DNA of 64,000 bases, taken from NCBI RefSeq assembly GCF_902167145.1, contig NC_050101.1, positions 128,618,990 through 128,682,989 of the forward strand, written 5' to 3'. This DNA is from Zea mays (taxonomy: Eukaryota; Streptophyta; Magnoliopsida; Poales; Poaceae). A program made the position numbers and the translations under genes. Shown here piece after piece: positions 22,728 to 59,597 of the stretch. Numbering within the stretch: the first letter of the stretch is position 1; each line of letters opens with the position of its first letter. The notes under the pieces are model-generated. The model was given only the letters and a program-made list of their open reading frames with translations. It had not been told where the DNA came from and made no database searches.

Positions 22728-23411
22728 TGTAGGGGCCTTTCCTCTTCCGAAGGTCCTCAAAAACATTACTAACCATTTATTTTTAGCATAATGTCGAGTA
22801 CTGCATGAGCTTCGCCATAAACAAAGGTTCATGATGGGAGATCTCTTCTCCACCAAAGGTCTTTAAGACGAAGATATAGCCCGAAAATGACAATGATGAA
22901 CGCCGAATTTATAGCCGAAGAGCAACAACTTCACCTTAAAGTGGTGTCGAAGATCAAGCATGATGCTGAGCCGAAGAGGAAAAGACTAGTTAGTCCCTAA
23001 CGATTTATGTTATAATTATGAACACATGTTAAGGTCGTAAATGTATTTTTACCCGGGCTGCGTCCCGTGCCTATAAATAGGTCAACAGTACCCACGTACT
23101 GTTCACGTTGGATTGTAATGTTCTCGCGTCAACACCTTCGATCAAGTCGAAGGTATCAATGTAATTTAAGTTCTATTAATGTACATGTTCATGCGTTATG
23201 AAGTAAATATATGAATGAACGAATGAATGACGTACATAATCTTCGCAAATTTTTATTCTCGTAGAATGATGAAGCTTTGTCCTTCATGACCTTCGTCTGA
23301 AGATCATTATATCTAGAAGGAGATAATGCTTCGAAGGACGAAGGTCCTTAATCTTTAACATTTGTGTTGTCTTGTTCTTGATTCACATCATTTGAGAACA
23401 AGTGACCAACA
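22728..23411 (+). repeat. 5' LTR of element C (684 bp)
   Basis: Starts TGTAGGGGCC (the partner has TGTTGGGGGA) and ends CCAACA. TATA box CCTATAAATAGG (about 23070) is followed by the near-palindrome TCAACAGTA...GTACTGTTCA (23082-23107). Confidence 0.88.
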
Positions 23412-27545: not shown

Positions 27546-29147
27546 GCGACCCCTCCCTTTCATTTATCTTTATCTATCTATAATGATTAAACAGGAAACA
27601 TGACTTTACTTTATACCAAACGTAGTATCCAAATTAATGCCCTTCTGTTAAGCAAGTGGTTTAATTTATAATTATGTAACGTGATCGTTTCTCGACTGTC
27701 TTTTCCTCTTTCTCTCTCTTAACCATAGTTGCGAGCCCGCGTGGAATGTCTGTTTATTTATTGCATTCTACTGTATGGTGTAATGTTCTTTGTATTAAAT
27801 GTGTGGATGTATGTATGTTTGCGCTCGTATAGAGAACGATCTGGTTGAAGAGTCCGAGGAACTCACAGGAGAAGCCCCTTAGCAGCCGCTGGTTGGTGGA
27901 GGCAAGTGTCCCTTGACCTATCTCTGTCCTATACATTCTTTAATTCACCTCCCGCATTTCACAGTTATACCTAAGGATTGACTAGCTTTTGTTATCCATG
28001 TCCTTGTTTACCTATTTGGGTTGGATTATTATTGTTTAGCTTTATGCTATTGCTCAACTCTAATCAATGAACATGATGAGAATTATCAATGATACGTTGT
28101 TTTCCCTCCTTTATTATGATGTTATACTTGTGGTATTCAAGGGGTCTCGAGCGATTTCTCGAGTGCCTCTCCGTAAGAACCTGTTTGTTGGATGACCGCC
28201 CGGGAAAACAGTGCAACCATGAGGGTGGAATGGGATGCCCTTAGCTGAATAATTAGAGGAACTGGGGTGTAGTTCGCTTAGCCGTTGTGCCGTTAATGGG
28301 GCTCGGTGTATGCGGCTCGCTCTGCCAAGTTTGGGTTCGCCCCTTGGGGAGGAGTGTGGTGCATTTAGGAAACCTAACGGGCGGCTACAGCACCGGGGAA
28401 TCTTTGTAAAGGCTACATAGTGATGCCCTGCTGGGTCACCTTGGTATTGATCAATGGAGAGTCATGATCTCCGGGCAGAAAGGGAATCACGGCTTGTGGG
28501 TAAAGTGCACAACCTCTGCAGAGTGTATGAAAACTGATATATCAGCCGTGCTCACGGTTATGAGCGGCCAAGGGAGCTCCAGTGATTAGTGTTACTTGAT
28601 CAGAGATGTTCGGATTTGCAGGTGGCAATGAGATTGATGGTTCTTGGTATTGATTCTGGTAATGGTAAGTGGTACTCTTTCCGTTTGGAAAGGAGTACGT
28701 TTGGGTTAATAACACAGGTTAATTCTAAAACTTGGCTTTCTCTACTAGTAATAATAATCTAACCAACTAAAAGCAACTTCTTGACTTACCCCCACATAAA
28801 GCTAGTCCACTACAGCCAAACAGGATACTTGCTGAGTATGTTGATGTGTACTCAACCTTGCTCTACACACCAAACCCCCCCATCCCTAGGTTGTCAGCAT
28901 TGCAACCCCTGCTCAGGAGAAGATGAAGCTGTGGAAGGAGACCACCAGGAGTTCCAAGAGTACGATGAGTTCTAGGCGTGGGTTAGCGGCAACCCCCAGT
29001 CGGCTGCCTGTGAAGGCCGTGTTTATCTACGTTTCTTTTCCGCACTTTGATTTATTGTAAAGACTATGTGGATGTCTCAGACATATGATGTAATTGACTA
29101 TTATTCCCCTTTTTAATACTATTTGAGCACTGTGTGATGATGTCCAT

Positions 29148-29754
29148 TGTTGGGGACTTGTTCTCAAATGCTATAGATTAAGAACAAGGCAACATAAAAA
29201 TATTAAGCATAAATGCCCTTCGTCCGCTGTAGCATTATTTCCCTAAGGATTCAATGAACTTCGGACGAAGGCCACGAGTAAGGTATCAAGAAGATTACAC
29301 CTTCGTGATCATACTTGTAATAACAACAAACGATGAGAAATGAAACATAAAGCATAGAATATATTCATATATTTTATTATATGAATATATAAATATTAAA
29401 ACATAATGTTCGGGCATATTTATACCTTTGCCTTGGGGGAAAGCAATAATTCAAGCGTAACGTGCCCGTGATTATAGGATCGCGTGAACAGTGCCGGGAT
29501 ACTGTTCACCTATTTATAGGCACAGGATGCAACCTGCGCAAAATTACATTTATGTCCTTTACAATCGACTATAATAGCGACACAAAACATCATGAGTCTT
29601 TAAGTCAATTCATCTTTAAGTCGGTTCGACCCTTCATTTTGAGATTTGTCTTTGTGCCGAAGCTTTACAGATAATAGCTTCGGCGCTTGCTTCTGAGAAG
29701 ACCTTTCGAAGGTGTTCTTTTTAGGATCTTCGGCTACGAAGCATACCCCCAACA
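29148..29754 (-). repeat. 3' LTR of element D (607 bp)
   Basis: Ends tgttgggga...cccccaaca in plus orientation. Same length as its partner with about 15 substitutions and no indel seen. Confidence 0.92.
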
Positions 29755-30030: not shown

Positions 30031-30038
30031 TATATAAA
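30031..30038 (+). promoter_or_regulatory. TATA box of the antisense accessory gene in element D
   Basis: TATATAAA lies about 200 bases before the first ATG (30235), with no ATG in between. It is internal to the element, outside the LTR, and points opposite to the LTR promoter. Confidence 0.65.
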
Positions 30039-30234: not shown

Positions 30235-33156
30235 ATGGCCAGAGTTCGCTCTACTGCTCGGGTCGATCGTGAGGGAGATGAGACCGAAGCTACTGAGACT
30301 GTTCCTATTTCGGAAGCAATGAAGCGCTCTGGGTTGGTAACACCGGAGGACATCCCTGCTACCGAAGACATCCCTGCTGCCGAAGCAGAACGGGCTGCTG
30401 TTGAAGAAACTGATTCTGAAGATGATTACAGCAGCGCAGTGCCAAGCAAGCCTAGCCACCTGGACTTCGGAAAGTCCACCATCTCCGAAGCTAATTTTCC
30501 TAAGATGGTGAAGCTGGGCTATCTTAGTGAAGCAAAGAAGGAATTGATTCGTTTTGGTGGAGAAGAAACTATCCCGAAGCCGGGAAAAAAATGAAGTGGT
30601 GGTTTTCAAAAGTCTTTTTAAAGCTGGTTTAAGATCCCTCTGAACAAGATGATTGCTGGTGTGTTGAAGAAATATGGGATCTACCTTCATCAGCTAACGC
30701 CTAACGCTATCGTTAGGCTGAGTGTTTATATCTGGACCCTCCGAAGCCAGGGGGTGGAACCATTCGCCGAAGGTTTCTGCCGAGTACACGAACTGCACTA
30801 CCAAACCAAGGCTAGGGGAGATGGTTTGCATGAAAATTTTGGCTGCTACAACTTTGCTTATCGCAAAACTACAAAGTTCCCAGTGATTAGTTACCGGAGC
30901 AAATGGCCAGCAGGATGGAAATCTGAATGGTTTTATGTCAAAGTTGACGAAGATGAAGATAAATTGGTCCAGAGTCCGTTAGAACTGACCTTCGGAGAAA
31001 CAAGACCCCCGTGCAACATGATACGGGGGAGCCCGAGCCAGATTGCCTTGGCTTAGTTTCGAGTAATTGCAGATCATATTGGCACTAGAGACTTAGTGCA
31101 GGAATTTTTGACCTTCAGAGTATTCCCGACTTTGAAGGAGTGGGAAATGCCGAAGCTAGAGGGGGAAAAAAAGAAAGGGGAGCTTATTCGGTTGCCCTAC
31201 CACTATAAGTTCAAGAAACATTTCAAAGTATCTTGCCAAGAATGGCTGGATACAATCGAAGTAATGTGCAACGAAATTCTTGGAAATTATTCTAAAAAGG
31301 AAGATCAATTGATGACAGCGGCCTTCGGCACCCGTCCGAAACGAAGGCTAAACCGAGTGATGGATGCTATAGGCTTTGAATATCCTGACTATGAGCGACT
31401 GGACAAGGGTGCCGAAGGGCAAAAAAGAAAAAGAGTGGCTAGTGCTTTGAATAAAGACGACGAAGATCAATCAAAGAAGAAGAAACAAGAATCTAAGGCG
31501 AAAGCAGTTGCTTCGAAGAAAAGAAAGGCCTCGACCCCAAAGAAAAAATCAATTGATGAGGAAGAGAAGACTTCTGCGACATCTTCTGCTACTGAAATAG
31601 AGGAAATCCTAAAGGTAATGACTGAAACTTTGCCTACCAAACTAAGTCCATTGGGGCTTCATCTGACAAAGTTTTTTCATAAGGAAAAGGAGCCCACAAA
31701 AACAAAGGCACCTAGGCCAAAGAGGCAAAGGATTGTTACTGTGACAGAAGTGATTGAAGCAACACCACCAAGGGCTTTAGCTCCAAAGGTGCCGGTTATT
31801 GAAAGCACAACAGCTACCGAAGCTGCACCTTCGGAGGCCATAGATGTCGAAGCTACTAGAGCCGAAGATATTAATTTGGAAAGTGTGGCTCTTGATATAA
31901 ATAAAATTCTGCTAGACATGGCCGCAGAAGAAGCTGCTGGAGCCATCGAAGAGGCTTCGGCCCTAGAGGCCGAGAAAAAGAAAGAAATTGCCGAAGAAAC
32001 ACTCGAAGATGAAATTTCCAATTTTCAAAACTTGGTTGGCCAAGAATTAACAAAAGCCGAAAAAGAAGAATTAAAAGAGTATGCCATTTCTTGCGGCTAT
32101 CGGCCAGGGGCACTTCTCTTCGGAGGTGTTGATGATGAGAAGTTAGGCTGCATCCGAGATCAGACCGGAGCAAAGGTTATCGGTACTCCATCAAAGAGTA
32201 TCGGTTTCCCAAAGCTCGAAGCCGATATTAGCCGCTACCGACAACAGCACATCGTCGGTAGTTTGTTTTATTCCAATTTCAAGGTAAACAATCTCCCTCT
32301 AACTTTTTATTTTCATAAAAAATGTTTTCTAACGAAGGTTGTTCGTGTACAGAGTATGATATTGAGCAAAGCTTTGAGGATGCAAGAGGATTTAGAAGAT
32401 AAAAAACATGAGGTTATAATTGAAAACTTAGAAAACAAAATAAAAGATCAAACAGCTGCTTTTGAGAAAAAAGAGTTCGAACTCCAAACAACTGAAGGTT
32501 TACTAGCGGAAGCCGAAGCTAAAATAACAGAACTAAATATGAAGCTTCTCTATCAGTCAGAAAGTTTCGAACAAGAAAAGCTGAAGCTTAATGAAAAACT
32601 TGAGGCTGAAATCCAGAATGGTTTAGTTTTGAAAAAATCATTGATAGACCTTCAGAACAAATGTTTGAAATTCAGCAATCAATGTGTTCAATGACTGAAG
32701 AAGGTGTTTTATTCAGTCGGGGCCAGTAGTGAAAAATTTATTCCTTCGGCTGAAGATCTACCAGGAGCCTTCGAACACATCGAAGGTGAGATTGATGACC
32801 TTGATGATGTTATTGCCGGTCACGGCGACTTTTGTGCCCTGGTAGCTTCTCGGGGCACCGCTGCTGCGTTCCTGAAATCTGGCTGTGAGCACGGAAAAAT
32901 TATCAACAGACCCAATTTCAGCCCATCACCAGCAATTCTAGATGATATTCCTAACCTCGCCCGAAGCATTGCGAATAAATTTATAAAGGTGATATGGACA
33001 AAGGGTGGGCGAGAGAAAGCTGGTGACGAGGCCCGGAGCCACCTTAAGCTGGTAACAATATTATACCTTATGCTTACCTTTTCCTTTGAATTTTTGAATT
33101 TAGCTTATAATACTTACATACAGGTTGACCAAGCCGAAGCTGAAGCTGCAGAATAA
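30235..33156 (+). pseudogene. Antisense accessory gene of element D, nearly full length, two introns
   Basis: Starts at the first ATG after the TATA box (MARVRSTARVD). Order: acidic N-terminus; a domain with LRSPLNKM, IYLHQLTPNAI and WFYVK (30610-30960) resembling the plant 'putative gypsy type transposon' family; a Lys-rich, likely nuclear, segment (31410-31560); an acidic Ala/Glu-rich stretch; a coiled coil (32370-32690); then the GDFCALV...SGCEH segment (32825-32895). Introns 32284-32352 (69 bp, GTAAAC...TACAG) and 33052-33123 (72 bp, GTAACA...TACAG). The last exon codes VDQAEAEAAE, stop at 33156. Breaks: frame change and stops near 30590-30630, TAG near 31054, TGA at 32692. Opposite strand to pol of the same element. 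Confidence 0.8.
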
Positions 33157-37967: not shown

Positions 37968-37979
37968 GGTGGGCGCCAA
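37968..37979 (-). other. Primer-binding site of element D (tRNA-Lys type)
   Basis: TTGGCGCCCACC on the minus strand abuts the 5' LTR end (CCAACA). Confidence 0.8.
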
Positions 37980-38586
37980 TGTTGGGGACTTGTTCTCAAA
38001 TGCTATAGATTAAGAACAAGGCAACACAAAAATGTTAAGCATAAATGCCCTTCGTCCGCTGAAGCATTATTTCCCTGAGGATTCAATGAACTTCGGACGA
38101 AGGCCACGAGTAAGGTATCACGAAGATTACACCTTCGTGATCATACTTGTAATAACAACAAACAATGAGAAATGAAACATAAAGCATAGAATATATTCAT
38201 ATATTTTATTATATGAATATATAAATATTAAAACATAATGTTCGGGCATATTTATACCTTCGCCTTGGCGGAAAGCAATAATTCAAGCGTAACGTGCCCG
38301 TGATTACAGGATCACGTGAACATTGTCGGGATACTGTTCACCTATTTATAGGTACAGGATGCAACCTGCGCAAAATTACATTTATGTCCTTTACAATCGA
38401 CTATAATAGCGACACAAAACATCATGGGTCTTTAAGTCAATTCATCTTTAAGTCGGTTCGACCCTTCATCTTGAGATTTGTCTTTGTGCCGAAGCTTTAC
38501 AGATAATAGCTTCGGCGCTTGCTTCTGAGAAGACCTTTCGAAGGTGTTCTTTTTAGGATCTTCGGCTACGAAGCATACCCCCAACA
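37980..38586 (-). repeat. 5' LTR of element D (607 bp)
   Basis: Pairs with 29148-29754. A minus-strand TATA (CCTATAAATAGG, about 38340) is followed by the palindrome, here slightly decayed. Confidence 0.92.
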
Positions 38587-38683: not shown

Positions 38684-41600
38684 AGGGGGAGAGAGTTCAG
38701 CTGCACCATACTACAAGTGTCTGTTAGTTCCGAAGCTAAAATAATTTACGAAGCTAGGTCACAATAGATATATTTATAAGTCTTGCACGTTCTGCAGCTT
38801 CTCAGTTTTCCTAGCCTCTTCCAAGGCAGCATGAGACTCTTTCTCATTTTTTCTGATAGCTTCGTCGGCTACCAGTCGGCCACCCCTCAACCAGACTTTG
38901 GAAAAAAACTTTTCAATTAGCGCAGTGGCTTCGGCCGAAGGGTTCTTAATGTCGTTGGCTGAGATCGAGAATCCTGGCTGAACCACAGCCTTTGCATGTT
39001 CATAGCCAACCTTCTCAAGGAGTGACAGAGCTCCGCGGGCGCCGACAAAGGCGCAGAAGTCTCCCCTATCTCTCAGAATCTCCTCAAAAGCTTTGGCTTT
39101 GCCGCAGATCCACCGAATAACTCCATCAGGATTGCCACGAATAAAATGTTGCTCTGTAGAGAACGCGCCAACTTTGGCAAAGCTATCTTTCAATTTACTA
39201 CAACATTCCATGGCAACACTGTAGCATTCTTCTTTTGCTTGACGAAGCTCCTTGACATTTTTCTGAACTCTCAGCCATTCAGTATCAGATATTTCGCGCT
39301 TTGTTTGCTCGATATTAAAATTTTCAGTCACTTCATCGAGTTTCTTTTCCAGTCCTTGCACTTCAGATCTGTGCAATTCTACTTGAATAGATAGCACATA
39401 CTCCAAGTCAGCAATGTGCTTCGCATCTTTTTGTTGCTTCTCTTCAAACTCCTTTACCCTCTGCTCTGCTTCGAAAAGGCTAGAAAGCCTAGCTTCACTA
39501 GATTTTAATCTTTCCACCAAAGAGAGCATGATCTTATCCTTCTCGAGAGCTTCATTTCTCAAAGTTATGGCCTCCGAATGAAGGTTTCCAATTGCTATCT
39601 AATTGCTCTCATCTTCTGCATCTTTCTGAGCCTTTAAAGCTTTGCTAAGAATTAGACCCTGGCAAACAAAGAACGTACAAATAACAATAATAAGTATCAC
39701 CACAAAATCGTTCATCATAATAAAAACTACCAAATACGAAGGCAAAATAAACAAACCTTCAGGCTGTTATAAGCGAGACTATCTACAAGTTGGTCCTTCG
39801 TCATTACAGACAGACCAAGCTCAAGCTTCGGGTATCCCATGTTGTCCATCATTTCCCAGCAAACATCAATCTCCTTGCTGTCTGGTAGACAGTAAAGGAA
39901 GTCATCTTTGTCGCTCCCTCAATAAACTAAGGATCCCCGAGGGTATTCAAGATCCCTTACATAATGTTGCACTTCGGTAATTTGATCTTCGGATAGTTGC
40001 TTCCCCGAAGCATGACAAACAATATATTCTGAATCAACTTGGGAAGGTGTTTCGGGAGTAGGCAATGTTGGCTTTTCATGAAGACTTTCCTTCGCTAGTT
40101 CTACTAGCTTAACCCCTGAAGCTTCAGCCTCAGTGTAAGTGAGAGAAGCACTTGCAGTGGGTACTTATCTCGACTCTTCAACATTTTCTTTGGGAGCTTT
40201 GATAGAAGTAGGAGTTGGAATATTTGTAGACTTCAAAACAACATCCAAAACACTGACCATCCTTCTTTCCTTAGGAGTCATTGTTACAGCAGTTGTTAGC
40301 CTCGGCAACCTAGTTGTGGTTGGGGGACTCAGCAGTTTTGAATGCTCTTCTGCCTTTGAGCTCTTTATCTCAGACTCTTCTACTGGACCGGCACTAGCTT
40401 CGACCGTCACAGTAGGAATCATCTTCAAAGCTAAGGGGATATCTTCGGCCAGTTCAGCAATCTCTATCCTCTTTGTATCAGGTATTACAGCTGTCCTTCT
40501 TATAGAATGTGGCCTCGGCATGTGAGTTAAAACTTTAACCTTCTTTGATTTAGGCGTGGTGGAAGAGGATGAGGCTGATATTTTCCTTTTCAACCCTTGT
40601 TTTCGGGCAGGAAAGTAGTAATCAGGATAAAAAACCAATCACATCAAAAACTCTATTCAACCTCCTCTTTTCGCAAGCGCCAAAGGCAATGGTCATAGCT
40701 TCATCCTCTACCTTCGTGTAAGCTCCCAAAAGCTCATCACTAGTAGCTTCGACAGCCTCAAGCCAGTCATCATTTGGCTCATCAAACTGATTTCTGAAAT
40801 GGTAAGTATATCTCAGGTAAACCAAGCCACCTTCGTTAGAGCTAGTAGCAGTCTCCTTCGGCATCTCCCAGTCATTAACGAGCGACCACACCTTGTAGGC
40901 AATATGCTCCTGGACTAAATCTTTGGTACCGATGTAAGTACACATAATGTTGAAAGCCATCAAACACGCTTGCACTTCATTCCCACTTGCAATTGATGGC
41001 CTCCTGATGTCAAAGCGTGACCGAATGGGGCGCTATATTATTCCACTCACATCTTCCCTCTCACCCAGATCATTCTTGACATAAAACCATTGCTTCATCC
41101 AAGAGCCCGACCATTTCTTTCGGAATGTTGGCATAGGATACCTCACATTAGAACGGTACACAAAGTTGTAACATCCAAAGTTGTTATGATACTGCTCCTT
41201 CCCAATTGCCTTCGTCTGGTAGGATAATTCATGAATGTTGCAGAAGCACTTGGCATCTGGCTCTAGCCCTTGGCTTCTCATAACCCAAATAAAATTCCAA
41301 CTTTAATTAAGGCTTCGGGAGTAAGCTGATGAAGGTATATCTCAAATGTCTTTAGCACTTCAACCAGCATCTTGTGCAAGGGAAAACGAAGTCCAGCCTT
41401 CAAAAAACTTTTAAATACTACCACTTTGTCTGCCTCGGGAAGAGGAACGGTACTCTCTCCCCCAGCCCTCACAATGGATATATCATGGAAATATTTCTCC
41501 TTCATCGCTTCATCTGTCCTTGCTTAACAGTGGATTTTCCGAAAACAACATGACTCGGCCTCCATGGTCGATCTTCGGCATATTCGTTATCACTCTTCAC

Positions 41601-41737
41601 ATCAAAGTAATCACTGTCGCTGGAATCCCCAGATAGCCCAGCCAACATCTCATTAGTAATTTTTCAACATTGGTCCTTTCCATAGCTTCGTAAAAACCAG
41701 CAAGTGTCGGGTCTACAATCTTCTTATCTTCGGCCAT
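38684..41737 (-). pseudogene. Antisense accessory gene of element C, upstream part, with a conserved intron
   Basis: ATG at 41737 (MAEDKKIVDP), the first after a minus-strand TATA. Domain order as in D: LRFPLHKM and IYLHQLTPEALI (41420-41290), 'WFYVKND' (about 41070), a Lys-rich stretch (40570), intron 39756-39659 (98 bp, GTTTGT...TGCCAG), then a coiled coil starting GLILSKALKAQ and the GDFCAFVGARG...GYEH segment (39060-38990). A second intron probably starts near 38785. Frame breaks near 41660, 41280, 41030 and 40625. The C-terminal exon lies at 25874-26079, across the inserted solo LTR. Opposite strand to gag of the same element. Confidence 0.78.
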
Positions 41738-41860
41738 TTCAATGATGATCACAACAAATGCCGAAGCTCAAAAACAATTGCGCTTACAGAAGAAGAAAAC
41801 TAAAATGGCAATCACAGCACAAAAAGCTAGATAGCACAAAAAATGTTCATAGCACAATCC

Positions 41861-42027: not shown

Positions 42028-42713
42028 TGTTGGGGGACTTTCCTCTTCCGAAGGTCCTCAAAAACATGACTAACCATTTATTTTTAGCATAATGTCGAGT
42101 ACTGCAGGAGCTTCGCCATAAACAAAGGTTGATGATGGGAGCTCTCTTCTCCGCCGAAGGTCTTTAAGACGAAGATATAGCCCGAAAATGACAACGATCA
42201 ACGCCGAAGTTATAGCCGAAAAGCAACAACTTTGGCATAAAGTTGTGTCGAAGATCAAGCATGATGCTGAGCCGAAGAGGAAAAAACTAGCCAGTCCCTA
42301 ATGATTTATGTTATAATTATGAACACATGTTAATGTCATAAATGTATTTTACCCGAGCTGCGTCCCGTGCTAATAAATAGGTGAACAATACCCCCCGTAT
42401 TGTTCACGCTGGATTGTAATTGTTCTCGCGTCAATATCTTCGATCAAGCCGAAGGTATCAATGTAATTTAAGTTCTATTAATGTACATGTTCATGCGTTA
42501 TGAAGTAAATATATGAATGAACGAATGAATGACATACATAATCTTCGCAAATTCTTATTCTCATAGAATGATGAAGGTTTGTTCTTCATGACCTTCGTTT
42601 GAAGATCATTATATCCGGAAGGAGATAATGCTTCGGAGGACGAAGGTCCTTAATCTTTAACAACTGTGTTGCCTTGTTCTTGATTCACAACATTTGAGAA
42701 CAAGTGACCAACA
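42028..42713 (+). repeat. 3' LTR of element C (686 bp)
   Basis: Begins TGTTGGGGGA after purine tract GAGGGGCTAC (42018-42027) and ends CCAACA before GGCCC. About 45 differences from the 5' copy, including a changed TATA (taataaatag). Confidence 0.9.
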
Positions 42714-48155: not shown

Positions 48156-48630
48156 TGTTGGGGCGAAGGCAAAGACGCCACCCTTCGCTCGAGGCCTTCG
48201 CTGCAGCCGCTGGTCCGACGGAGACAAAGCGGGCAGGGACACCCTTCGCAGGACTCGGCACTTTGACGAAGGCCTGCGGCGACGTCCTCCCACGGCACGG
48301 CCTCGTTCAGCCCCAAGGCCCACGTGTGATCTGGCCCATCGTAACGGGCCCCGCGTGGCCGCCTCTGTATTACGGGCCTAACTTGTAAAGGCATACTTGT
48401 AATTACAGCTTGTAACCCTGCTTTATGGGAATATTCCGGGGATAAACCAGGCGTCTGAGGGCACATGCGTCCTTAACACGAGACGCTGGGCACTCAGATA
48501 CCTATAAATACCCCCGCACAGTGCCCGTGAGAGGCTAGATTAACAGAGCTATTGCCCCCGTGCACGTAACCCTGTTGTCACCACTGTTCACCCTTGTTGG
48601 TCTACTTGCAGCAGAGAGCAAGTTCCAACA
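48156..48630 (+). repeat. 5' LTR of element E (475 bp)
   Basis: TGTTGGGGCG...GTTCCAACA. TATAAATA at 48503-48510 would start the genomic RNA. Confidence 0.95.
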
Positions 48631-48631
48631 T

Positions 48632-48644
48632 TTGGCGCCCACCG
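48632..48644 (+). other. Primer-binding site of element E (tRNA-Lys type)
   Basis: TGGCGCCCACCGT begins one base after the LTR and complements 13 bases of the tRNA-Lys(CUU) 3' end as I recall it. Confidence 0.8.
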
Positions 48645-48670
48645 TTCGTGCTACGACAAAACCACCCGCG

Positions 48671-51600
48671 ATGGCACCCAAGAGAGCTAACCCCAAGGCT
48701 GACGAGGCTGCGAAGGCAGCACTGCTGGCCGCAAGAAAGGGCAAGGCCCTCGTCCTCACCCAATCCACCCACCAAGAGCCCGTTGAAGACAATGTTCCCC
48801 ACACCGGCGAAGACGACACCTTCCGCACCTGCGGAACCGAAGGACAGTCGTAGCCGCCCCCAGGCTTCGCCCCACTGGAAGGCGCGGACCTCACCGAGGA
48901 CGGTGAGGTCCTCGGCGTCTCGACAGAAGAACAGCTGCAGCTGCGCGCCCTGCGCCTCAGGAACCGCAATCTCCAGAGGCAGAAAGAGATACTGGAGGCC
49001 AAGCGCCAGCGTGTTTCCGCATTAGCCAAAGTGCGGCAAATGATACGCGACGAGGAGCAGAAAGCCCAAGACCTCGAGCGCGAGATCGCGCTGATGCAGC
49101 GCGAAGGCCACCTCGGTTTACAGCAAGAGCCACCCCTCCAACAACGCACACAACCGGAGGACACGCGCGAAGGCTACCTCGGCCGGCAGCATGGCCAACC
49201 CCTGCAGCACCGGGCGCAGCCGGAGAACCCGCGTTTCCCCCAGCATGACTACGCCCCCCAGCACGGCGCGCCATTCCAAGGGGTCAACTACCTCGACGAG
49301 CGAAGTCCCCTGGCGCCACACCTGCAAGTGACGCCTTGGCCAGCCAACTTTCGAGCGGGGGCATACCCCAAGTACAACGGCAGCACCGACCCGGCGCAAT
49401 ACATCATGAGTTACCAAGTCGCCGTTGCATCAGCCGGAGGGGACGACGCCACAATGGCGAAGTCTTTCATCATCGCCCTAGAGGGCCCAGCACTCACCTG
49501 GTTCACCAGATTGCCTCCGCTGTCCATTGATTCGTGGCGAAGTCTCAGGGACAAGTTCCTCCTCAACTTTCAAGGGTACCGTCCAGACACCAACGCTTTG
49601 GCCGAGCTCTCGCTTTGCAAACAGCTGGAAAAGGAGACTCTGCGGGAGTATTACCGCAAGTTCTTAACACTCAAGTCGCAGCTGCCCTCTGTCGACGATC
49701 AGATCGCTATCCACTACGCCATCAGTGGCCTTCGGGCCGGCGTCCTCTACAGCCATTGTATCAGAGATCCACCCAAGAGCTTGCAGGAGCTATATCAGCT
49801 CTTCGAAAAATATGCCAAGTCCGAAGAGCTCCACCAGCGCAAGGTCGAGTCACAACGGAAACCCAACAGTCAGACTCCGCAGTCCAGCCGCACGTGGACA
49901 AGGACTCCGCAGCCAGACTCCAGTCGAGACGGCCGCAGTCAGCAGCAAGTCCACAACATCGTCAACCAACAGCCTGCTGCTGACCCCCCTCGCCGCCAGG
50001 AATATCCCCCCCAGGGCCGCGGAAATGGAGCTCGCGGCAGGGGTCGAGGGCGGGCGCAGCAGCCGCCGCGCCGGTTCTATTGCCTTTTCCACGGCGAAGA
50101 CTGCGCCCACCAGACCAAAGACTGCCCCGAGACGAAGGCCACCAGAGACAGAATGGCGAGGGCGCAGCCAGCCGACAATCCCAGAATTGTCGCACATAAT
50201 TATCAGCCACCCCCTCCACCATATGTCCACGCTCCCGCTCCGCATCCACCGCACCACGCTTACCAACACCATCAGGAAGTACAAATCGTACCTCCTCCAC
50301 CCCCACCACCACACCAGCAACACCAAAACATCCCCCATGCCCCAAAGCAAGAAGACTTCGCCGATCAACCATATCGCGGAGTCATTCACATGATAACAGG
50401 GGGGTCGAGCACCGACTTCGACACCAAGCGGCAGAAACGGGACCACTACCGCAGCATCAACCATGTCGCTGTCACTGGCCCAGTCGTGCAGACAAAGTGG
50501 TCCCACATACCGCTAACCTTCGACGCGCGAGACGTCGACCTGCGCAGCGCCCCCCACATCGACGCAATGGTCATCAATTGCAGCGTGGCAGGCTGGGACT
50601 TACACAAAGTCCTAGTCGACAACGGCAGTCAGGCGGACATCATCTTCCTCCACGCCTTCGACCGCATGGGTATAAGCCACAGCTTGCTGAAGCCTTCGGA
50701 CAACCCGTTGTATGGTTTCGGCGGCAAGGGCACCTTTCCAGTTGGCAAGATAGAGTTGCCCCTCTCCTTCGGTGTAGCACCCAATGCCCGAAGTGAGCAA
50801 ATAACCTTCGACATTGTCGACATGGTATATCCGTACAACGCCATCATGGGCCGGGGCTCCATCAACAAATTCGAAGCCGCCATCCACGGGTTGTACCTAT
50901 GTATGAAGATACCAGGCCCGCTAGGCGCCATCACAATCTACGGCAACCAGCAGACGGCGCGCAACATAGAGCGGGACTTCGTGCCCGGTCAGAGAAATGT
51001 ACACTGTCTCACGACCCAGCGCGAAGTCCCTGCGCCGGCCAGCCCAACCGAAAAGCAGCACGACAAGGCACAGCTGCAGTGCCAAGATGGGACCAAGACT
51101 GTCCCCCTCGATCAGGCCACGCCCAAGCAGACAGTAACTATCAGCGAAGACCTCACCTCACTTGAAGAAGAGAAACTTCTCTGCTGCCTGGCCAAGAATA
51201 AAGATGTCTTCGCCTGGTCTGCCCTCGATTTGGTCGGAGTCAGCCGAGCCATTATTGAGCACAGCTTGGGGATTGACCCTTCGGTGCGACCCAAAAAGCA
51301 GAAGCTTCGCAAGATGTCAGACGAAAAGACAGAAGCCGCCAAGGCGGAGGTGCATCGCCTCCTGGAGGCTAAATTCATCGAGCCAGTGGCTTACCCCACG
51401 TGGCTCTCCAATGTTGTGATGGTGCAGAAGAAAAGCGGAAAATGGCGCATGTGCATAGACTTCACCAGCCTCAATAAGTCCTGCCCCAAGGACAATTTCC
51501 CGTTGCCACGGATCGACAAAATAGTCGATAGCGCGGCCGGATGCGAGGTCATGTCCCTCCTCGACTGCTTCTCCGGCTATCACCAGATATACATGAAGGA

Positions 51601-54340
51601 GGAAGACAAGGCTAGCACCAGCTTTATAACACCCTTCGGCACTTATTGCTTTGTCAGAATGCCGGAGGGTCTCAAGAATGCCGGATCCACCTTCTCCAGA
51701 CTCACCAAAACAGTGCTCGAAGGGCAGGTCGGCAGAAATATATTCACATATGTGGACGACATCGTCGTCGCCAGCAGGAATAAGGAGGACCACCTCGCCG
51801 ACCTGGCGGAGACATTCGCGAACATGCGAGATGCACGACTCCGCCTAAACCCGGAAAAGTGTGTTTTCGGTGTTCGCCAGGGCAAGATATTGGGCTACCT
51901 GGTGTCCCGCCGCGGCATCGAGGCCAACCCAACCAAGATCCAGGCCATCGTCGATATGTCGCCTCCGCAGTCAGCTAGGGACGTCCAGCGCCTGACAGGC
52001 AGGATGGCCGCCCTCAATAGATTCATCTCCAGGTCCGCCGAGCGAAGTCTCCCCTTCCTCAAAACACTCCGCGGTGCGAAGGACTTTGCTTGGGGACCGG
52101 AGCAAGCAGCGGCTTTCGCCTCATTAAAACAGTACCTGGCGGAGCTGGCCATCCTCACAAGCCCAGACTCCTCGCTCCCCTTATTGCTCTATGTCGCGGC
52201 TTCGCCGCACGCGGTCAGCGCGGCACTGGTACAGGAGCAGACAGTCGAGGGCGCAGTCAGACAGTGCCCTGTCTACTATGTCTCCGAAGTCCTGACACCA
52301 TCCAAATGCAACATGACAGAGCTGGAGAAGATTGCTTACGCAGTTGTTATGTCCTCGCGCAAGCTGCGCCATTATTTTGAAGCATTCAAGGTCCGAGTCA
52401 CCTCAGACAGGGGACTCGGCGAACTATTCAGGAACCCGGAGGCATCAGTAAGAATTGCCAAGTGGGCAGCCGAGCTCTCCGGCTACCACATCAGCTTCGA
52501 GCCCAGGACAGCCATCAAATCGCAAGTCCTGGCAGACTTCGTCGTCGACTGGACTGGGCCAGTAACACAGCCGGACCCATCCACAGAAAAGGTCTGGACT
52601 ATCCATTGCGACGGTGCATGGTGTCATGCGGGGGCAGGCGTCGCTGCAGTCATCACCTCACCAGCCGGAGTCAAACACAGATATGCAGCACGCCTCAGCT
52701 TCGCTCTGGAGTCCGACAAATGTACAAACAACATAGCAGAGTATGAAGCAGTCATCCTCGGCCTCCGCAAGCTAAGGGCCCTCGGAGTCACCACATGTAT
52801 CATCAAAACAGACTCCAAGATAGTCGCCGGTCAGGTCGAAAAAGACTATGCAGCAAAAGACCCCGCGCTCATGCAATACCTCGCGGCTATCCGAAGTCTC
52901 GAGAGGCAGTTCAAGGGATTCACCCTACAGCATGTGGACAGGGCCAAAAACGAGGAGGCCGATGCATTAGCCAAAGCCGCCGCCAGGGGCGAGCCCCTGC
53001 CCTCTGACGTATTCTTCCACACCATCGGCACGCCAGCCGTCCGGAGCCCCGAAGGGCTCCAAATAACTAATGATAGCGAGGGCCACCGTATAGTCAACCT
53101 AATCATGACCGAAGACTGGCGGGCCCCAATAACCCTGTTCCTACAGGGATACTATCACCCAACAGACGTCAGTGAGGCGAAGCGCCGCGGACATCGAAGC
53201 CGGGACTTCGCACTGATCGAGGGCCAATTATACAAGAAAGGGGTCAGTCAGCCAATGCTTAAGTGTGTCACCGAGACCGAAGGCATCCAAATCTTGCGCG
53301 AGGTCCACAGTGGCACGTGCGGCTCGCACGCGGGGCCAAGGGCCCTGGCTGCTAAGGTGATCCGACAAGGGTTTTACTGGCCTGCAATGATCTGCGCCGC
53401 AAATCGAGTCACAAGATCCTGCGAAGCCTGCCAGAAGTTCTCTCCTCGGTCAGGCAACCCCTCGCAATACACAAAGCTGATCGCCCATACATGGCCTCTT
53501 CAGCGCTGGGGCCTGGACATTGTCGGGCCCCTGCCCACCGCTCAGGGGAACCTTAAGTTCGCCTTCGTAGCCGTCGAATACTTCACCAAGTGGATTGAAG
53601 TGAGGGCCGTGTCCACAATCACATCAAAGACTGCCCAAAAATTCTTTTGGCAGAACATTGTTTGCCGCTTCGGAGTACCGTCCGAGCTAACAGTTGACAA
53701 CGGCAAGCAGTTTGACAATCAAGATTTCAAGGATTTTTGTTTTTCCATCGGCACCAAGCTTGCCTTCGCTTCAGTCTATCATCCGCAGTCCAACAGAGTC
53801 GTGGAGCGTGCCAATGGGAAAATCTTCACAGCTGTCAAGAAGATGCTCCTCGATGAGAAAAAAGGCAGATGGACAGACTTGTTACCGGAGGCAGTCTGGG
53901 CGCTAAACACAACCGAGTGTAGGGCGACCGGGTTCACTCCTTTCCGCCTTCTATACGGATCGGAGGCAATGACCCCGCAAGAAATAAAGCATGGGTCTCC
54001 GCGCACAGCTCCGTCAGCCACCCCTGACGTGGATGAGCCAACATCCAAAGATCTCATTGACGGAGACCGGGTCTTCGCCCTGCAGGCCTTAAACAAATAC
54101 CAAGCCTAGACCAAAGCATGGCGCGACCGCGCAGTCATCCCAAAGGAGTTCAGCACGGGGGACCTCGTACTCATCCGAACAGCTCGGACGGAGTCCAAGG
54201 GCAAGTTGGAGCCCAAGTGGGAGGGCCCCTTCATAGTTAAAACAAAGGCTTCCCCCAGCGCTTACAGGCTCACAACGCCAGACGGCGAGGACCTGGAGCA
54301 CTCCTGGAACATCGACAACCTTCGTAAATTTTTTGTTTAA
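48671..54340 (+). pseudogene. gag-pol: gag-pol polyprotein of element E, one 1890-codon frame with two TAG stops
   Basis: ATG at 48671 (MAPKRANPK). A single frame runs to TAA at 54338-54340, interrupted only by TAG at 48851 and TAG at 54107 near the end. Domains: coiled coil (about 48930-49120); gag core AYPKYNGSTDPAQYIMSY (49355); zinc knuckle variant CLFHGEDCAHQTKDC (50085); Pro/His-rich linker; protease VDNGSQADI (50617); RT with LPRIDKIVD, MPEGLKNAGSTFSR and YVDDIVVAS (51749); RNase H 1; archaeal-type RNase H IHCDGAW (52603) and TNNIAEYEAVILGL; integrase HAGPRA...CEACQKF, GLDIVGP, VDNGKQF, RVVERANG (53510-53810). All catalytic residues are present. The 1692 codons between the stops (49031-54106) are open. 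The first TAG would cut gag off near residue 60. Confidence 0.93.
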
Positions 54341-54571
54341 TTCTTAGGGCTGAGTTCGCCCTTGTAATTCACCGCAAACAATCTTGTACCGGCCCGCACT
54401 CTTTTCCTCCCGGGGGGTGAGGTTTTTAACGAGGCGGAGCCATGTAATATATGTGAGAAAAATCCCCCGCAAAAGCATGTGTCGAAAAAGACCGCGACAA
54501 CGGTCTTCGGCATTCGACCAATTCGAAGTCACCGCGAGGCTAAGCGCTAGACACCCTCGCGTGCGACCAAT
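54341..54571. other. Spacer after pol in element E
   Basis: No gene seen. It contains a 'cttttcctcccggggggtga' stretch and leads into the 79-bp repeats. Confidence 0.5.
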
Positions 54572-54966
54572 CCGCGCAGAAGTCGCCTAAGGGTGCAGCC
54601 GGACTTAGCACAACAAGTGCGCAAAAACCAAAGTCTATCGCGAAGACTATCCGCGCAGAAGTCGCCTAAGGGTGCAGCCGAACTTAGCACAACAAGTGCG
54701 CAAAAACCGAAGTCTATCGCGAAGACTATCCGCGCAGAAGTCGCCTAAGGGTGCAGCCGGACTTAGCACAACAAGTGCGCAAAAACCGAAGTCTATCGCG
54801 AAGACTATCCGCGCAGAAGTCGCCTAAGGGTGCAGCCGGACTTAGCACAACAAGTGCGCAAAAACCGAAGTCTATCGCGAAGACTATCCGCGCAGAAGTC
54901 GCCTAAGGGTGCAGCCGGACTTAGCACAACAAGTGCGCAAAAAACCGGAGCCTATCGCAAGAACCG
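54572..54966. repeat. Tandem array, five copies of a 79-bp unit
   Basis: Units start at 54572, 54651, 54730, 54809 and 54888, each with CCGCGCAGAAGTCGCCTAAG at the start and 'tctatcgcgaagactat' at the end. The copies are nearly identical; the last one degrades after 54950. It is in the same relative position as the ~62-bp arrays of A-D: between pol and the 3' end of the antisense gene. Confidence 0.95.
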
Positions 54967-55153
54967 CCTAAGGGCGCAGCCGACCCAGTATAACAAAAGC
55001 AGAAACGACAGCAAGACCAATTATAATCACACTGGCACAGCACAATCAATCACACCAGTCAAAGTACACAGCGCCCTCGCAGGCACAGGCACGCGAGGGC
55101 ACACTACTCCATTTTACAAGCCCTTACACATACACAAGCGAGGGCACCATGCC
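54967..55153. other. Region downstream of the antisense gene's stop
   Basis: No coding region. It would hold the 3' untranslated region of the antisense transcript. A plus-strand open frame here is a shadow. Confidence 0.5.
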
Positions 55154-58100
55154 CTACATCGGCTCAACCTTAGGAATAATCCCCATCTCTCTATAATTAA
55201 ATAACATTATCCTAAGCTCCTCACCCGCAAAAAGGCTTCGCAGCTCCCCTTCCCCTACACCCGAGACGGCCGGCAAAGACAGCAGCTCCTGCCGACCAAC
55301 CCTACTAACGCGAAGCCGAGCCCCTTCCTCCGCACTAATCCTACGCTTCGCAACCGCCCTTCGTCGTCGGTGCCCGGCGCTAGGACCGGGCACGCCTGGC
55401 GCATCCGCAGCATGTGGCGCAGCCTCCGCCGCAGCCACGTCCAAGGCCGCAAAATAGTCCAAGTCCTCCTCCGACGACTCCTCGGTCCACTCAACCGAGC
55501 TCCCAGAGTCAGTAAAATCAAAAAACTCAGAAAAAGACCCACCACATTCATTTCCATCTTCCGTGGTCGAAGCCGCCAAAAACTCAGTAGTAGCGGTTGC
55601 GTGCGCAGGCCCAAAATCTTGAACCTGCGCAGCAACCAAAATTCAGTACAACATCCAAAAATCCCTCAACCCTAAACACCACCTATGCCACCTGCGAAGG
55701 CCCTGCCGCTGCGGGAGCCTCCGCCGCCGCCTCCGTCGCCGCCTCCGCCCCCACCTCCGCTGGATCTTCAGCGCTCGGCACAGCAGCTGCGGGGGCATCA
55801 GGTGCGCCTTCGGCCACCTTTGGGGGAAGGCCTTCGCCGGCCGCAGCAGGTGCAGGGGCGCCTGGTGCATCTTCCGCAGTCACCGGGGTCAGCCCCGGGG
55901 CGACTCCAGTCGCGGCCTCCGCAGGGGTCGTCTCCGACTCAGGCAGCGCGCTGTTCAGCGCCCCCAAGTCGTCCACCCGCTCGCCGCGCTCCGCCTAAGA
56001 CAAAACGCACAAAAATTCAGCAAACACACGCACAGACAGCATCCAGCAAACGCCGAGTAAACGACAACGTTACCTGAGCCCTCGCAGCCTCGGCCCGCGC
56101 CCGGACCACCTCACGACCGTATGAACCCCACATCCGGTCATAGAGGGCCCCGACGGACTCCTTCACCACGGGGTCTTCGACCTCAAAGATATCTCGCACG
56201 AAATCCTCATCCACCTGGTCGAGGGCCTCATAGTGCCGGCAGCCTTCGCGAGAGAGCGCGTTCATCGCTGCCTCGCAGGTGACCAGGGAGGTGAACGACA
56301 TCAACCCCGCCAAGACAGTGGGGAGCTCCTGCAGTTCCTCCTGCACCCACTCCAGACAGCGAAGTCCGGCCTCTCGCTCCGGCACCTCGAAGTCACCCGT
56401 CCGCACACCCAGCTCGCGATATGAAGTCATGAGCTGCGTGCGCGTCCGTTCGGCCTCCGCTCGCGCCGCGGCCTCGGCCCCCTCCGCGCGGCTCTCAAAG
56501 GCAGCAAGCCGCCGCTGCAGCTCTCCGGCGAGCTCTTTAGCGATATTGCCTTCCGCCCGCGCCAGCCTGGCCTCCGCCTGCGCAGCCTGCTCTTTGGCGA
56601 TGGCTTCGTTGGCCTCCCTCCTCTCCTCCATCAGCTGGCGCCGGAGGTCTGCCTTCTCCTTCTCAAGGGCGGCCACCTTCTCCGCCAGTTTGCGGCACTT
56701 GCTGTCGGAGGCCGACTTCTCACGGACAGCGTCCGCATGTTGCGTCCGAAGTCTCTCGACCTCGGCAGACAACGCCGCCGTAAGGGCCCCCGACGCAGTG
56801 CGGCTGGTGAAGTCAGCCACCTGCAGAACACACGTAAGGCCCGTAAAAAAAATGTGTATAGTTCGGCGGACCTGACTCAGCGCCTCCATCACTCCCTTCA
56901 GCCGGCGGGTCGCCTCGCCCGCCTCGTCTCTGACCAGCGCGAGGGCAGTCACCTCGCCTCCAACGCCAAGGGTCTCTACCCCCGCCTTCGGCGCTGGCGC
57001 AGCCGTCGCGGTCGCCGCGCCAGGCACAACTAGAGCGAGCGGGCCCTCGTCCGACCCTGCAACGCGTCAACAAATTAAAAAAAAATGTATACATATTTGT
57101 ATAGACTTACCCCCAAGATAATCCTCCACATTAATCTCAGTGCCGAAGTCGGCAACGCGTTTGCCAGACGGCGGTAACGATCGGGCCGCCTTCGCAGCCT
57201 CCGCCACTCCGCTGACGGACGGCACCATCTTCGACAGCTTGGGGCCTCCGGCGCCCACCTTCGCCGGCAAAGGCGGCTTGCCTCCGCCGGAGGCCTCAGC
57301 CTTCGCCGTTCCCCGCTGCTTTTTCGGCCGAGCTTCGTGAACCCTCACGGTCGCCTGGCGTTTTCGCGCCGCCCCTTGGCGATCCTTGTCCATCACTGCC
57401 CACACAACATGACCGATATTTCGCCCATAAGGAAAAACTTTCCACCGACGAACCATACGAGATGTAAAACAGTCCTCATCATCCGCCCAGGGGATAGAAA
57501 TGCCTTTAGGCCAACAACCCCCGGTAACCCTCAGCATCCGAGCCGAAGACTCCCGGAGCTCGGGCGAAGACATCCTCTCCCCCGGGGCCGCACACGTCCT
57601 CATTAACTCTCTAGCGAAACTATCAGACACCCCAAGCCTTCCCATCGCAGTACCTAATTTTCTCTTTTTCGAAGAGGTGGCAGCCGCCAGCGCAGGGTCG
57701 CCTCCGGTCTCCACCGCCGGTTTCTTCCCGCGGCGGTCTGCTTCGTCCTGACCAGGGTAGCCATCGTACGGCAGTTGATTTAATTCGAAGACCCTGTTCA
57801 AACGATCGTTTGACCCGCGGATATCAAAACTGCGCTGGCCTTCCGTCCTCGGCACGTAGCGCCCCACGAGTCGCACCGCCAAGTCCTCTGCATCACGCAC
57901 AAAGGCGGCCGGATCACGGTTCCGCAAACTCAGTGCGAAGGCAGGACTTCGCACCTCCCTTCCTCCGTGAAAGGGCATCTGGCGAGGGCATACTTCGCCC
58001 AGCGCCCAGCCGTGCGCCAAGGGCCAGACCCCGTACGCCGCAAACTCTTCAACTAAATCACGACCGCTGCTCTGACCGGCGGCGTACCGAAGGGCCCCTT

Positions 58101-58788
58101 CGTCTGCATCCTCTTCTGCCACTTCGAAAGGCGGATACGCAGAGTAATAGTGAGAGCACATTTCGGACACGGGGAGCCCTTGATGGCCTTCGACAGTAGC
58201 CTCAGCAACATAAAACCAAAATTCATTCCAATTGCCCCACTTGTTGCGGGCGCACGGGACCAACTCCACTACTGGCATTGTGGTCTTGCCGGTCTTCGGC
58301 GTGAAAGTGCATGACCTGAACTGGGCAACTCCGCCCTCAACCACCCTTTTCTGCCAATGCAAGCAATAATTCTTCGCAAAAACTTCAACCGACGGCTGCC
58401 CGCCGTACGAAGTCGTCGCCCAGACATACTTCGCCAGCGCCACTATGGCGTTCGGTGTCAGCTGATGTATTTGAACGCTGAATCTGCGCAGGACTTCGCC
58501 GACAAACGGGTGCACAGGCAAGCGGAGTCCGGCGGCGAAGAACGCCTCGAAAACAACCAACTCGCCCTCCGGCTCGGGGACTTCCTCCGTCCCCGGAGCA
58601 CGAGCGACTCCGCCGCCGAAGTAGCCCAACCGCTGCATATCTTCAATCCGGGCTGACGTCATCCGTGACACACCAAATTCAACAGAGTCGCCGGCGCGCA
58701 ACTCCTCCACCATCACGTTACTCAACGTCTCCTCAGACGAGGCGGCGGCCGGCGGCGTGGCGGTGGCGGAAGAAGAAGAGGATGGCAT
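55154..58788 (-). CDS. Intact antisense accessory gene of element E, five exons, about 1127 residues
   Basis: Minus-strand exons: 58788-57111, 57056-56872, 56820-56074, 55994-55692, 55624-55154. All four introns (54, 51, 79, 67 bp) begin GT and end AG. Intron 1 is strikingly A/T-rich and has an in-frame stop; phases (1, 0, 0, 0) keep one frame to the stop at 55154. I chose ATG 58788 because it is the first ATG after the antisense TATA box. Residues about 78-200 (FAAGLRLPVHPF, IHQLTPNAI, later FWFYVAE) resemble the 'putative gypsy type transposon' family (PF04195, from memory), which is not a proven transposase. Then a basic segment, a coiled coil (about residues 640-740), a conserved LVTCEAAMNAL...GCRHYE block, an Ala/Pro/Glu-rich exon 4 and an acidic exon 5. 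Homologues: B, C, D. Two introns are shorter than usual for plants; RNA is needed for proof. Confidence 0.8.
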
Positions 58789-58948
58789 TGCTACGTACCG
58801 TCGGCGGCGGCGGGCGGTCTGCTTCACTCGAGCCAGAACGCCGACGAGCAAAGGGAGCAGCGGAGGAAAAGGAGCAGCAAGACGGCGGGCGGCTAGGGTT
58901 TTACGGAGCGCGGAAAGCAGAATTCAAACAGCGCCGCCCCCGCCCCCC

Positions 58949-58955
58949 TTTTATA
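58949..58955 (-). promoter_or_regulatory. TATA box of the antisense accessory gene in element E
   Basis: CTATAAAAGG on the minus strand (58947-58956), about 165 bases before ATG 58788. No ATG lies between them. AAACCCTAG, a common plant 5'-leader motif, lies between the two. It is internal to the element, about 170 bases from the 3' LTR. Confidence 0.75.
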
Positions 58956-59112
58956 GGCAGGGCGCGGCTCTTCGGGAAACCCGCAATCCAACAGTACGCC
59001 GTCCATCAACGGTCACATCAAAAACCCCCGCGGAACCACTTCGAGCGAGGGCAGCGTCTCCGCCATCTAGCGACGTCTTCGGCACCAGGTGACTTTGTCG
59101 AACTGGTCCCTC

Positions 59113-59122
59113 GGAGGGCAAA
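59113..59122 (+). other. Polypurine tract of element E
   Basis: GGAGGGCAAA directly before the 3' LTR. Confidence 0.7.
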
Positions 59123-59597
59123 TGTTGGGGCGAAGGCAAAGACGCCACCCTTCGCTCGAGGCCTTCGCTGCAGCCGCTGGTCCGACGGAGACAAAGCGGG
59201 CAGGGACACCCTTCGCAGGACTCGGCACTTTGACGAAGGCCTGCGGCGACGTCCTCCCACGGCGCGGCCTCGTTCAGCCCCAAGGCCCACGTGTGATCTG
59301 GCCCATCGTAACGGGCCCCGCGTGGCCGCCTCTGTATTACGGGCCTAACTTGTAAAGGCATACTTGTAATTACATCTTGTAACCCTGCTTTATGAGAATA
59401 TTCCGGGGATAAACCAGGCGTCTGAGGGCACATGCGTCCTTAACACGAGACGCTGGGCACTCAGATACCTATAAATACCCCCGCACAGTGCCCGTGAGAG
59501 GCTAGATTAACAGAGCTATTGCCCCCGTGCACGTAACCCTGTTGTCACCACTGTTCACCCTTGTTGGTCTACTTGCAGCAGAGAGCAAGTTCCAACA
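59123..59597 (+). repeat. 3' LTR of element E (475 bp)
   Basis: Three substitutions relative to the 5' LTR: in cacggc(a/g)cgg, ttaca(g/t)ctt and tatg(g/a)gaat. Confidence 0.95.

Follow-up and report, generated by a model that had tools for sequence, protein, structure and literature searches.

Long terminal repeat (LTR) retrotransposons of plants are generally without introns, and the available text of a December 2025 review names Ogre and EVADE as the exceptions (PMC12786077). Accessory genes on the strand opposite to gag-pol are also on record. In a survey of Retand elements, 104 antisense open reading frames (ORFs) were counted in 63 clusters, 57 of them with a TRP28 domain (PF04195, Transposase_28) and 11 Smc-like (PMC11963269). 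Grande gene23 has a promoter of its own for antisense transcription and encodes a nuclear protein, according to a 2020 review that also urges looking for antisense and spliced transcripts (PMC7264820). Here we describe a 64,000-nucleotide (nt) stretch of Zea mays DNA (GCF_902167145.1, contig NC_050101.1, positions 128,618,990 to 128,682,989; hereafter the window), in which an LTR retrotransposon at 48156-59597 harbors, antisense to gag-pol, a gene running from 58788 to 55154. In our judgment this is probably an ordinary-looking nuclear gene riding antisense in a Retand-type LTR retrotransposon, with its own TATA promoter, five exons and four spliceosomal introns.

The window gene and the Retand TRP28 ORFs are alike in their position between pol and the 3' LTR, antisense orientation, PF04195 domain, neighboring tandem array and sizes. 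In the survey, however, each ORF (mostly 600 bp or longer) is counted by itself, whereas the window gene consists of joined exons with conserved introns, and the word 'intron' is absent from the main text of the survey (PMC11963269). Grande gene23, likened here by its description, is another accessory gene in antisense whose place is the interval from pol to the 3' LTR; it too has a promoter of its own and a nuclear product, and 'intron' is likewise absent from the available text of the review that describes it (PMC7264820). HBZ of human T-cell leukemia virus type 1 (HTLV-1) is another minus-strand proviral protein gene, whose message is spliced and whose product is described as a basic zipper factor. 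The likeness drawn here is a functional one only; of the exons of spliced HBZ, one is in the 3' LTR and one lies internally, whereas the window gene has its promoter outside the LTR and five exons (PMC2386809). Spliceosomal introns are described in Ogre and EVADE and predicted in the window element, but those of Ogre and EVADE lie on the gag-pol strand and serve subgenomic RNAs or polyprotein joining, while the four described here lie on the antisense strand (PMC12786077, PMC6317226). Among the titles and abstracts listed by the literature searches, with subscription papers mostly outside this scope, none described an antisense gene with several introns in a plant LTR element, and the available text of a paper on maize element transcripts (PMC3091746) has nothing on a spliced antisense gene. 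Thus the gene family is already known, and its intron-split structure seems undescribed. A first-pass annotation of this DNA had likened the gene to those of Tat-lineage elements such as Grande; this placement fits, and it can be sharpened to the PF04195 antisense gene of Retand-type elements.

The proposed gene has the following parts, in order of transcription:

58788 to 55154, minus strand, whole antisense gene: five exons, 3384 nt joined, giving 1127 codons and one terminal stop
58947..58956, minus strand, TATA box CTATAAAAGG, about 167 bases upstream of the ATG at 58788 and 166 bases from the 3' LTR
57111..58788, minus strand, exon 1, with the start ATG, PF04195 (TRP28) at residues 78-143 and an invariant KKRK at residues 374-377
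57057..57110, minus strand, intron 1: 54 nt, phase 1, GT-AG, AT-rich, with an in-frame stop; 48-71 nt among copies
56872..57056, minus strand, exon 2, about 62 codons; no constraint evident
56821..56871, minus strand, intron 2: 51 nt, phase 0, GT-AG, with the weak donor GTCCGC; 45-76 nt among copies
56074..56820, minus strand, exon 3: predicted coiled coil, then a conserved helical part, from a structure model in which the helical part is at low confidence
55995..56073, minus strand, intron 3: 79 nt, phase 0, GT-AG; same length in 30/30 copies
55692..55994, minus strand, exon 4: 101 codons, Ala/Pro/Gly-rich acidic linker; no constraint evident
55625..55691, minus strand, intron 4: 67 nt, phase 0, GT-AG, unusually invariant; same length in 30/30 copies
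55154..55624, minus strand, exon 5: acidic, then basic C-terminal part with the stop codon; has relatives and constraint

Joining the exons reproduces the single frame of 1127 residues across four GT-AG introns that had been proposed from the sequence alone, and the proposed pairs 57111/57056, 56872/56820, 56074/55994 and 55692/55624 are the exon edges. The junctions keep phase (1, 0, 0 and 0) and A/T-rich intron 1 contains an in-frame stop, both as claimed. The TATA box, placed in that proposal about 165 bases before the ATG and inside the element, is indeed internal to it and outside the 3' LTR; TATA and ATG are kept in 30/30 copies, as is TATAAAAGG. The assumed leader of 137 bases contains no ATG. 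Retention of intron 1, 3 or 4 brings in a stop in frame, in intron 4 after two codons; in the window copy, retention of intron 2 brings in none. The linker in exon 4, which appears unconstrained, contains a 12-bp tandem repeat, GCCTCCGCCGCC, in 3.7 copies at 55717-55760. The first-pass annotation held that such a structure is hard to get by chance, and 60 dinucleotide shuffles agree. With up to four GT-AG introns of 45-150 nt allowed, the longest shuffled frame had 630 codons, none of the 60 reached 1127, and the opposite strand gave 579. A chance frame in GC-rich DNA is ruled out by these shuffles (0/60) and by the frame-specific ratios of nonsynonymous to synonymous changes (N/S) given below.

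The copies in the same genome allow selection on this frame to be measured. A search at the DNA level gave 5317 candidate places, of which 37 were scored; 30 were cut out, the window copy included, and 7 were not. The 30 copies contain one identical pair (L017 on contig C5 and L018 on the small contig C500, with no difference over 3985 compared bases), which is probably a single locus assembled twice or a recent duplication, leaving 29 distinct copies. For the neutral expectation, each change was redistributed over sites of the same trinucleotide context. The shared changes comprise 105 nonsynonymous and 130 synonymous ones against 153.4 and 76.7 expected; 4.9 stops were expected too, and no shared stop was found in the gene frame among the 29 distinct copies. 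The resulting N/S is 0.39 of neutral, and 0/1000 simulations were as low. For changes found in four or more copies the value is 0.33 and for singletons 0.65, and singletons differ from shared changes (Fisher P 0.004). The other two frames of the same strand have shared-change N/S of 1.86 and 1.61, and those of the opposite strand 0.44, 1.73 and 1.63, the low value being expected if codon positions mirror the gene frame. For exons 1 to 5 the shared-change N/S is 0.30, 0.70, 0.29, 0.99 and 0.54, respectively; exon 5 has 0.61 when all changes are counted (13/500 simulations as low; 43/500 for shared changes). This comparison shows purifying selection on exons 1, 3 and 5 in the gene frame. We have little doubt that this is a multi-exon coding gene under selection. 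The earlier suggestion that the gene has been kept working until recently is upheld by the N/S of 0.39 in frame, but not for exons 2 and 4, which look unconstrained. In addition, it is the lineage of source elements that has been 'kept working', as 9/29 distinct copies are now broken.

The same copies bear on the introns. All 37 scored places, window included, span the full query with 3,956 to 4,046 bases, and none of them is shorter by 251 bases, the length of the four introns. All eight splice dinucleotides are unchanged in 30/30 copies. This is more telling at introns 1 and 2, because only about half of the sites are invariant there (26/54 and 26/51). With 31 changes where 9.1 are expected, intron 1 shows a roughly threefold excess, as does intron 2 (28, with 9.2 expected), and intron 3 changes at the average rate (16 against 14.8). 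A dN/dS near 1 together with indels equally spread over exons and introns had been named in advance as an argument against the gene; the in-frame N/S is far below neutral. Introns 1 and 2 hold 28/43 indel events in 105 of 3961 aligned query bases, which departs from such a spread; introns 3 and 4, however, have none, and the remaining events fall in exons (10) and outside the gene (5). The only exon indels shared by at least two of the 29 distinct copies have lengths divisible by three (39 and 21 nt), while six of the eight single-copy exon indels do not; a 17-nt event in both members of the identical pair is counted here as single-copy. Retention of intron 2 breaks the frame in 14/30 copies. 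The spliced frame is unbroken in 20/30 copies, all of them distinct (20/29). Branch-like YTNAY sites lie 12-50 nt before the acceptor in 27/30 copies of intron 1 and in 30/30 of intron 2.

Database proteins give a second view of the junctions. The whole product found 21 relatives, all of which match exon 1 (60-86% identity) and align to 40-52% of the product; the exon 2-3 frame found 833 and the exon 5 frame 1667, and for these two the statistics come from the best 120. Most of the matches listed are metagenome predictions, presumably of plant DNA, of which the nearest, at up to 98%, could come from maize. Upstream of the frame, 8/21 metagenome relatives have the peptide [VM]YK[RK]G, which is TATAAA..G translated. 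At the donor of exon 1, a DYLVGK- or DYLGGK-like peptide is found in 18/21 relatives with divergence afterwards, and in the window the last two codons of exon 1 contain GGTAAG. Within the exon 2-3 frame, exon 3 corresponds to residues 70-318, and in 101/120 listed alignments the first matched residue is one of 63-71. Averaged in blocks of ten residues, identity is 0.00-0.01 up to residue 60, 0.26 in block 61-70 and 0.52-0.97 across 71-320. From 0.81 at residues 311-320, where exon 3 ends, it drops to 0.31 and 0.35 in the blocks that follow. In 29 high-scoring segment pairs (HSPs), exon 3 and the start of exon 4 are held in one frame with an insert at intron 3, which is 24-26 alignment columns long in 25 of them. 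Such read-through inserts also occur at intron 2 in one relative (22 columns) and at intron 1 in two; one row at the exon 1/2 junction is gap-free, yet its right-hand side is not exon 2. The alignments show that similarity to relatives drops at the predicted splice sites of introns 1-3, and the gene is very probably spliced as modeled at these three introns. Among the matches listed, exon 5 relatives align over the entire frame, which takes in five codons of intron 4. Recent capture of a host gene by this copy only is ruled out by the 37 genomic places and by hundreds of database relatives.

Several observations weigh against this reading or parts of it. The search used for the shuffles permits 1174 codons on the real strand via other junctions. 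Therefore, length alone cannot fix the junctions, which rest on comparison. None of the 261 database proteins crosses a junction with the intron absent. Relatives' called frames open and close inside the introns, and this contributes part of the edge signal; 61/120 listed alignments continue at low identity into intron 3 and stop only where the query ends; the 29 read-throughs of intron 3 look alike and may come from one lineage. Exon 2 is barely covered among the matches listed, and exons 2 and 4 are indistinguishable from neutral in the copies. Decoy dinucleotides are often unchanged as well (GT 157/245, AG 185/267), and the joint invariance of the eight splice dinucleotides has a probability of about 0.04 from these decoys, which is weak alone. 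Introns of 45-54 nt are short by plant standards, the intron 2 donor GTCCGC is weak, and retention of intron 2 leaves the frame open in 16/30 copies. No YTNAY site lies 12-50 nt before the acceptor in any of the 30 copies of introns 3 and 4. Exon 5 relatives do not bear on the acceptor of intron 4 because the 3' end of the intron is conserved too, and the intron itself has 1 change against 11.0 expected in the 29 copies (66/67 sites unchanged; P 2e-4, the lowest of 11 regions tested). For the product, a structure model of exon 1 was unusable (predicted local distance difference test, pLDDT, of 29 from 22 sequences), and exon 1 had no solved structural relatives up to E 0.1.

The host element is laid out as follows:

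48156-59597, gag-pol on the plus strand, intact LTR element with two LTRs and a target duplication
48156..48630, plus strand, 5' LTR of 475 bp, with the target duplication CGGTA directly before it
49031..54109, plus strand, gag-pol, a single open frame of 1692 codons with Pfam domains
54570..54962, no strand assigned, tandem array: 79-bp unit in 5.0 copies at 97% matches, flanked by pol and the 3' end of the antisense gene
59123..59597, plus strand, 3' LTR of 475 bp, with CGGTA directly after it

The LTRs end in TGTTG..CAACA (TG..CA) and are flanked by CGGTA on both sides, as in an intact LTR retrotransposon. They are 99.37% identical, with 3 mismatches in 476 aligned bases. At a substitution rate of 1.3e-8 per site and year, the insertion would be about 0.24 million years old. 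The order of Pfam domains in gag-pol is Retrotrans_gag, RVT_1, RT_RNaseH, RVT_3, Integrase_H2C2 and rve. RVT_3 (1194-1317) is an additional RNase H-like domain between RT_RNaseH (1046-1152) and Integrase_H2C2 (1420-1472), and an extra RNase H between RNase H and integrase is described as a mark of Ogre and Retand polyproteins (PMC6317226). The region from pol to the 3' LTR, 54110-59122, is 5013 bp long and contains the 79-bp array and the minus-strand gene; in the Retand survey this region measures 2,933-6,566 bp, and tandem arrays of this type are described (PMC11963269). With the extra RNase H, the long region and the antisense PF04195 frame all present, the element classes by sequence as Retand-type.

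The product would have 1127 residues laid out as a TRP28 domain, basic patches, a long coiled coil and an acidic tail. The PF04195 match has E 3.8e-14 and 53.1 bits against a cut-off of 26.2, and the invariant KKRK is a possible nuclear signal. In the structure model, exon 3 forms helices at residues 2-34 and 40-142 with block-mean pLDDT of at least 90 over residues 41-120, which suggests a long coiled coil; its last 100 residues are at low confidence. The net charge is -15 for exon 4 and -12 for exon 5. A search of viral contigs for relatives of exon 1 returned two pattern-matching stretches, neither of them a relative. TRP28 is predicted to bind DNA (PMC11963269, in the available text). From this prediction and the published nuclear Grande protein, we propose that the product may be a dimeric nuclear regulator of the element; in the window sequence itself, the invariant KKRK and the coiled coil point in this direction. 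We regard the chances of a nuclear regulatory role as about even.

Among other explanations, the most probable is that part of the 3' end of the exon map is wrong: intron 4 would be retained, the product would end after exon 4 at about 974 residues, and exon 5 would belong to another product or isoform. The invariance of intron 4 at 66/67 sites, the lack of YTNAY in range, the stop after two codons and the neutral look of exon 4 all suit this idea. Yet exon 5 is constrained in the frame of the model (13/500 for all changes, 43/500 for shared ones) and 1667 relatives of exon 5 are in that frame, and we consider the retained intron unlikely. The invariance is equally likely to stem from function or from a mutational cold spot or gene conversion, because most singletons should be neutral changes that arose after insertion. 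The same invariance (1 change, with 11.0 expected) is what an element working as RNA or DNA might show, and it would fit an antisense transcript that acts as RNA, as a double-stranded RNA trigger or as a decoy for silencing or self-limitation, with coding secondary. Such a role is raised as possible in the 2020 review (PMC7264820, available text), and antisense RNA of yeast Ty1 has trans-silencing activity (PMC12786077, likewise). We find it quite improbable here, as codon-level constraint and the lack of shared stops argue against it, and exons 1, 3 and 5 behave as protein.

It could also be that the TRP28, coiled-coil and short C-terminal parts are separate antisense genes or ORFs, each expressed individually with no need for splicing. 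The survey tallies its 104 antisense ORFs in this way, with TRP28 and Smc-like apart (PMC11963269, available text), and exon 1 by itself is a 559-codon frame with TATA and ATG. The edges of similarity, however, lie near splice sites and not at ATG or stop codons of the window frames, read-through relatives hold exons 3 and 4 in one frame around intron 3, the length of intron 2 varies out of frame, and the sequence past exon 1 diverges among relatives. These points make separate ORFs improbable. More doubtful again is that the gene worked only in an older ancestor, its low N/S being inherited from then, and travels as a passenger in the recent family. The 9/29 broken copies and the singleton N/S nearer to neutral (0.65 against 0.39) fit a passenger, but shared changes among copies up to 4.2% apart are constrained (0.39; 0.33 in at least four copies), which argues that the gene stayed under constraint as the family recently spread, and 20/29 distinct copies retain the whole spliced frame.

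Two further TRP28-type genes were found in the window with an exon 1 profile, along with these features:

29144-29754 and 37976-38586, LTRs of a second element with reverse transcriptase and integrase frames on the minus strand, 97.4% identity
30236..33156, plus strand, second-family TRP28 gene, decayed, antisense to the reverse transcriptase and integrase frames of its element
38774..41738, minus strand, third-family TRP28 gene, decayed, one copy seen

The two pieces of these genes that were tried gave no Pfam match. Read by eye, the second-family gene has a TATA-like sequence near 30033 and its first ATG at 30236. Its introns, 32284-32352 and 33052-33123, are both phase 0 and flank a coiled-coil exon. 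In the window copy and ten of 39 other places found (n=11), the donors are GT in 10/11 and 11/11 and the acceptors AG in 11/11 and 10/11. The middle exon has no stop in five copies, one stop in three and a frame shift in three; its shared changes are 7 nonsynonymous and 12 synonymous against 12 and 7 expected (6/500 simulations as low). It matches the exon 3 profile with E 6e-5 in an assumed search space of 1000. The later intron lies 15 residues past a common Gly-Arg in both families, and in a MAFFT alignment the later introns are a few residues apart and the earlier ones about five. By this alignment, the predicted introns of the second family are at places corresponding to those of the window gene. 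The LTR spacing of the second element, 8832, comes within two bases of the 'Zea mays 2' cluster (585 + 8,245), a resemblance only (PMC11963269, available text). The third-family gene has an intron at 39756-39659, before the coiled coil and thus at the earlier position (one copy, donor read by eye), and the peptide beside it resembles that of the second family (GLILSKAL against SMILSKAL). No intron was seen at the later position in this one copy, and its match to the exon 3 profile, 0.84, is not significant. Direct repeats at 22732-23411 and 42033-42713, 92.8% identical, resemble LTRs of an older element that took up the second one by insertion; the older element would hold the third TRP28 gene.

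If the window gene is indeed a spliced antisense gene, its persistence in a retroelement can be explained by its orientation. Minus-strand RNA would be made from the internal TATA and then spliced. The protein would enter the nucleus, dimerize via its coiled coil and bind DNA of the element or the host, regulating transcription or integration of its own family. The gag-pol-strand RNA would carry the introns as reverse complements and would not be spliced before reverse transcription, and the spliced antisense message, without LTR ends and primer site, would not be copied. The introns would thus be shielded from loss because the reverse-transcribed RNA of the element cannot splice them, as deduced from the retrotransposon cycle, and the intron-bearing gene would survive cycles of transposition. 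Retrotransposition reporters use the opposite layout, with an intron in the sense of the element so that it is lost (PMC12786077, available text).

More tentatively, and with somewhat less than even chances, most Retand antisense 'ORFs' in flowering plants may be exons of a single ancient gene (TRP28, coiled coil and tail) that was captured once, introns included; orientation would prevent their loss, and the introns may be useful. If so, the spliced message would be exportable and distinguishable from the intronless RNA of the element, and an intron-containing gene would have a stable route through an RNA phase. Our reading, if right, would supply an explicit exon map for an accessory gene that is widespread in plant retrotransposons and would unite the 'TRP28' and coiled-coil ('Smc-like') pieces in one protein. 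It would also point to a simple rule, that introns are kept by facing backwards.

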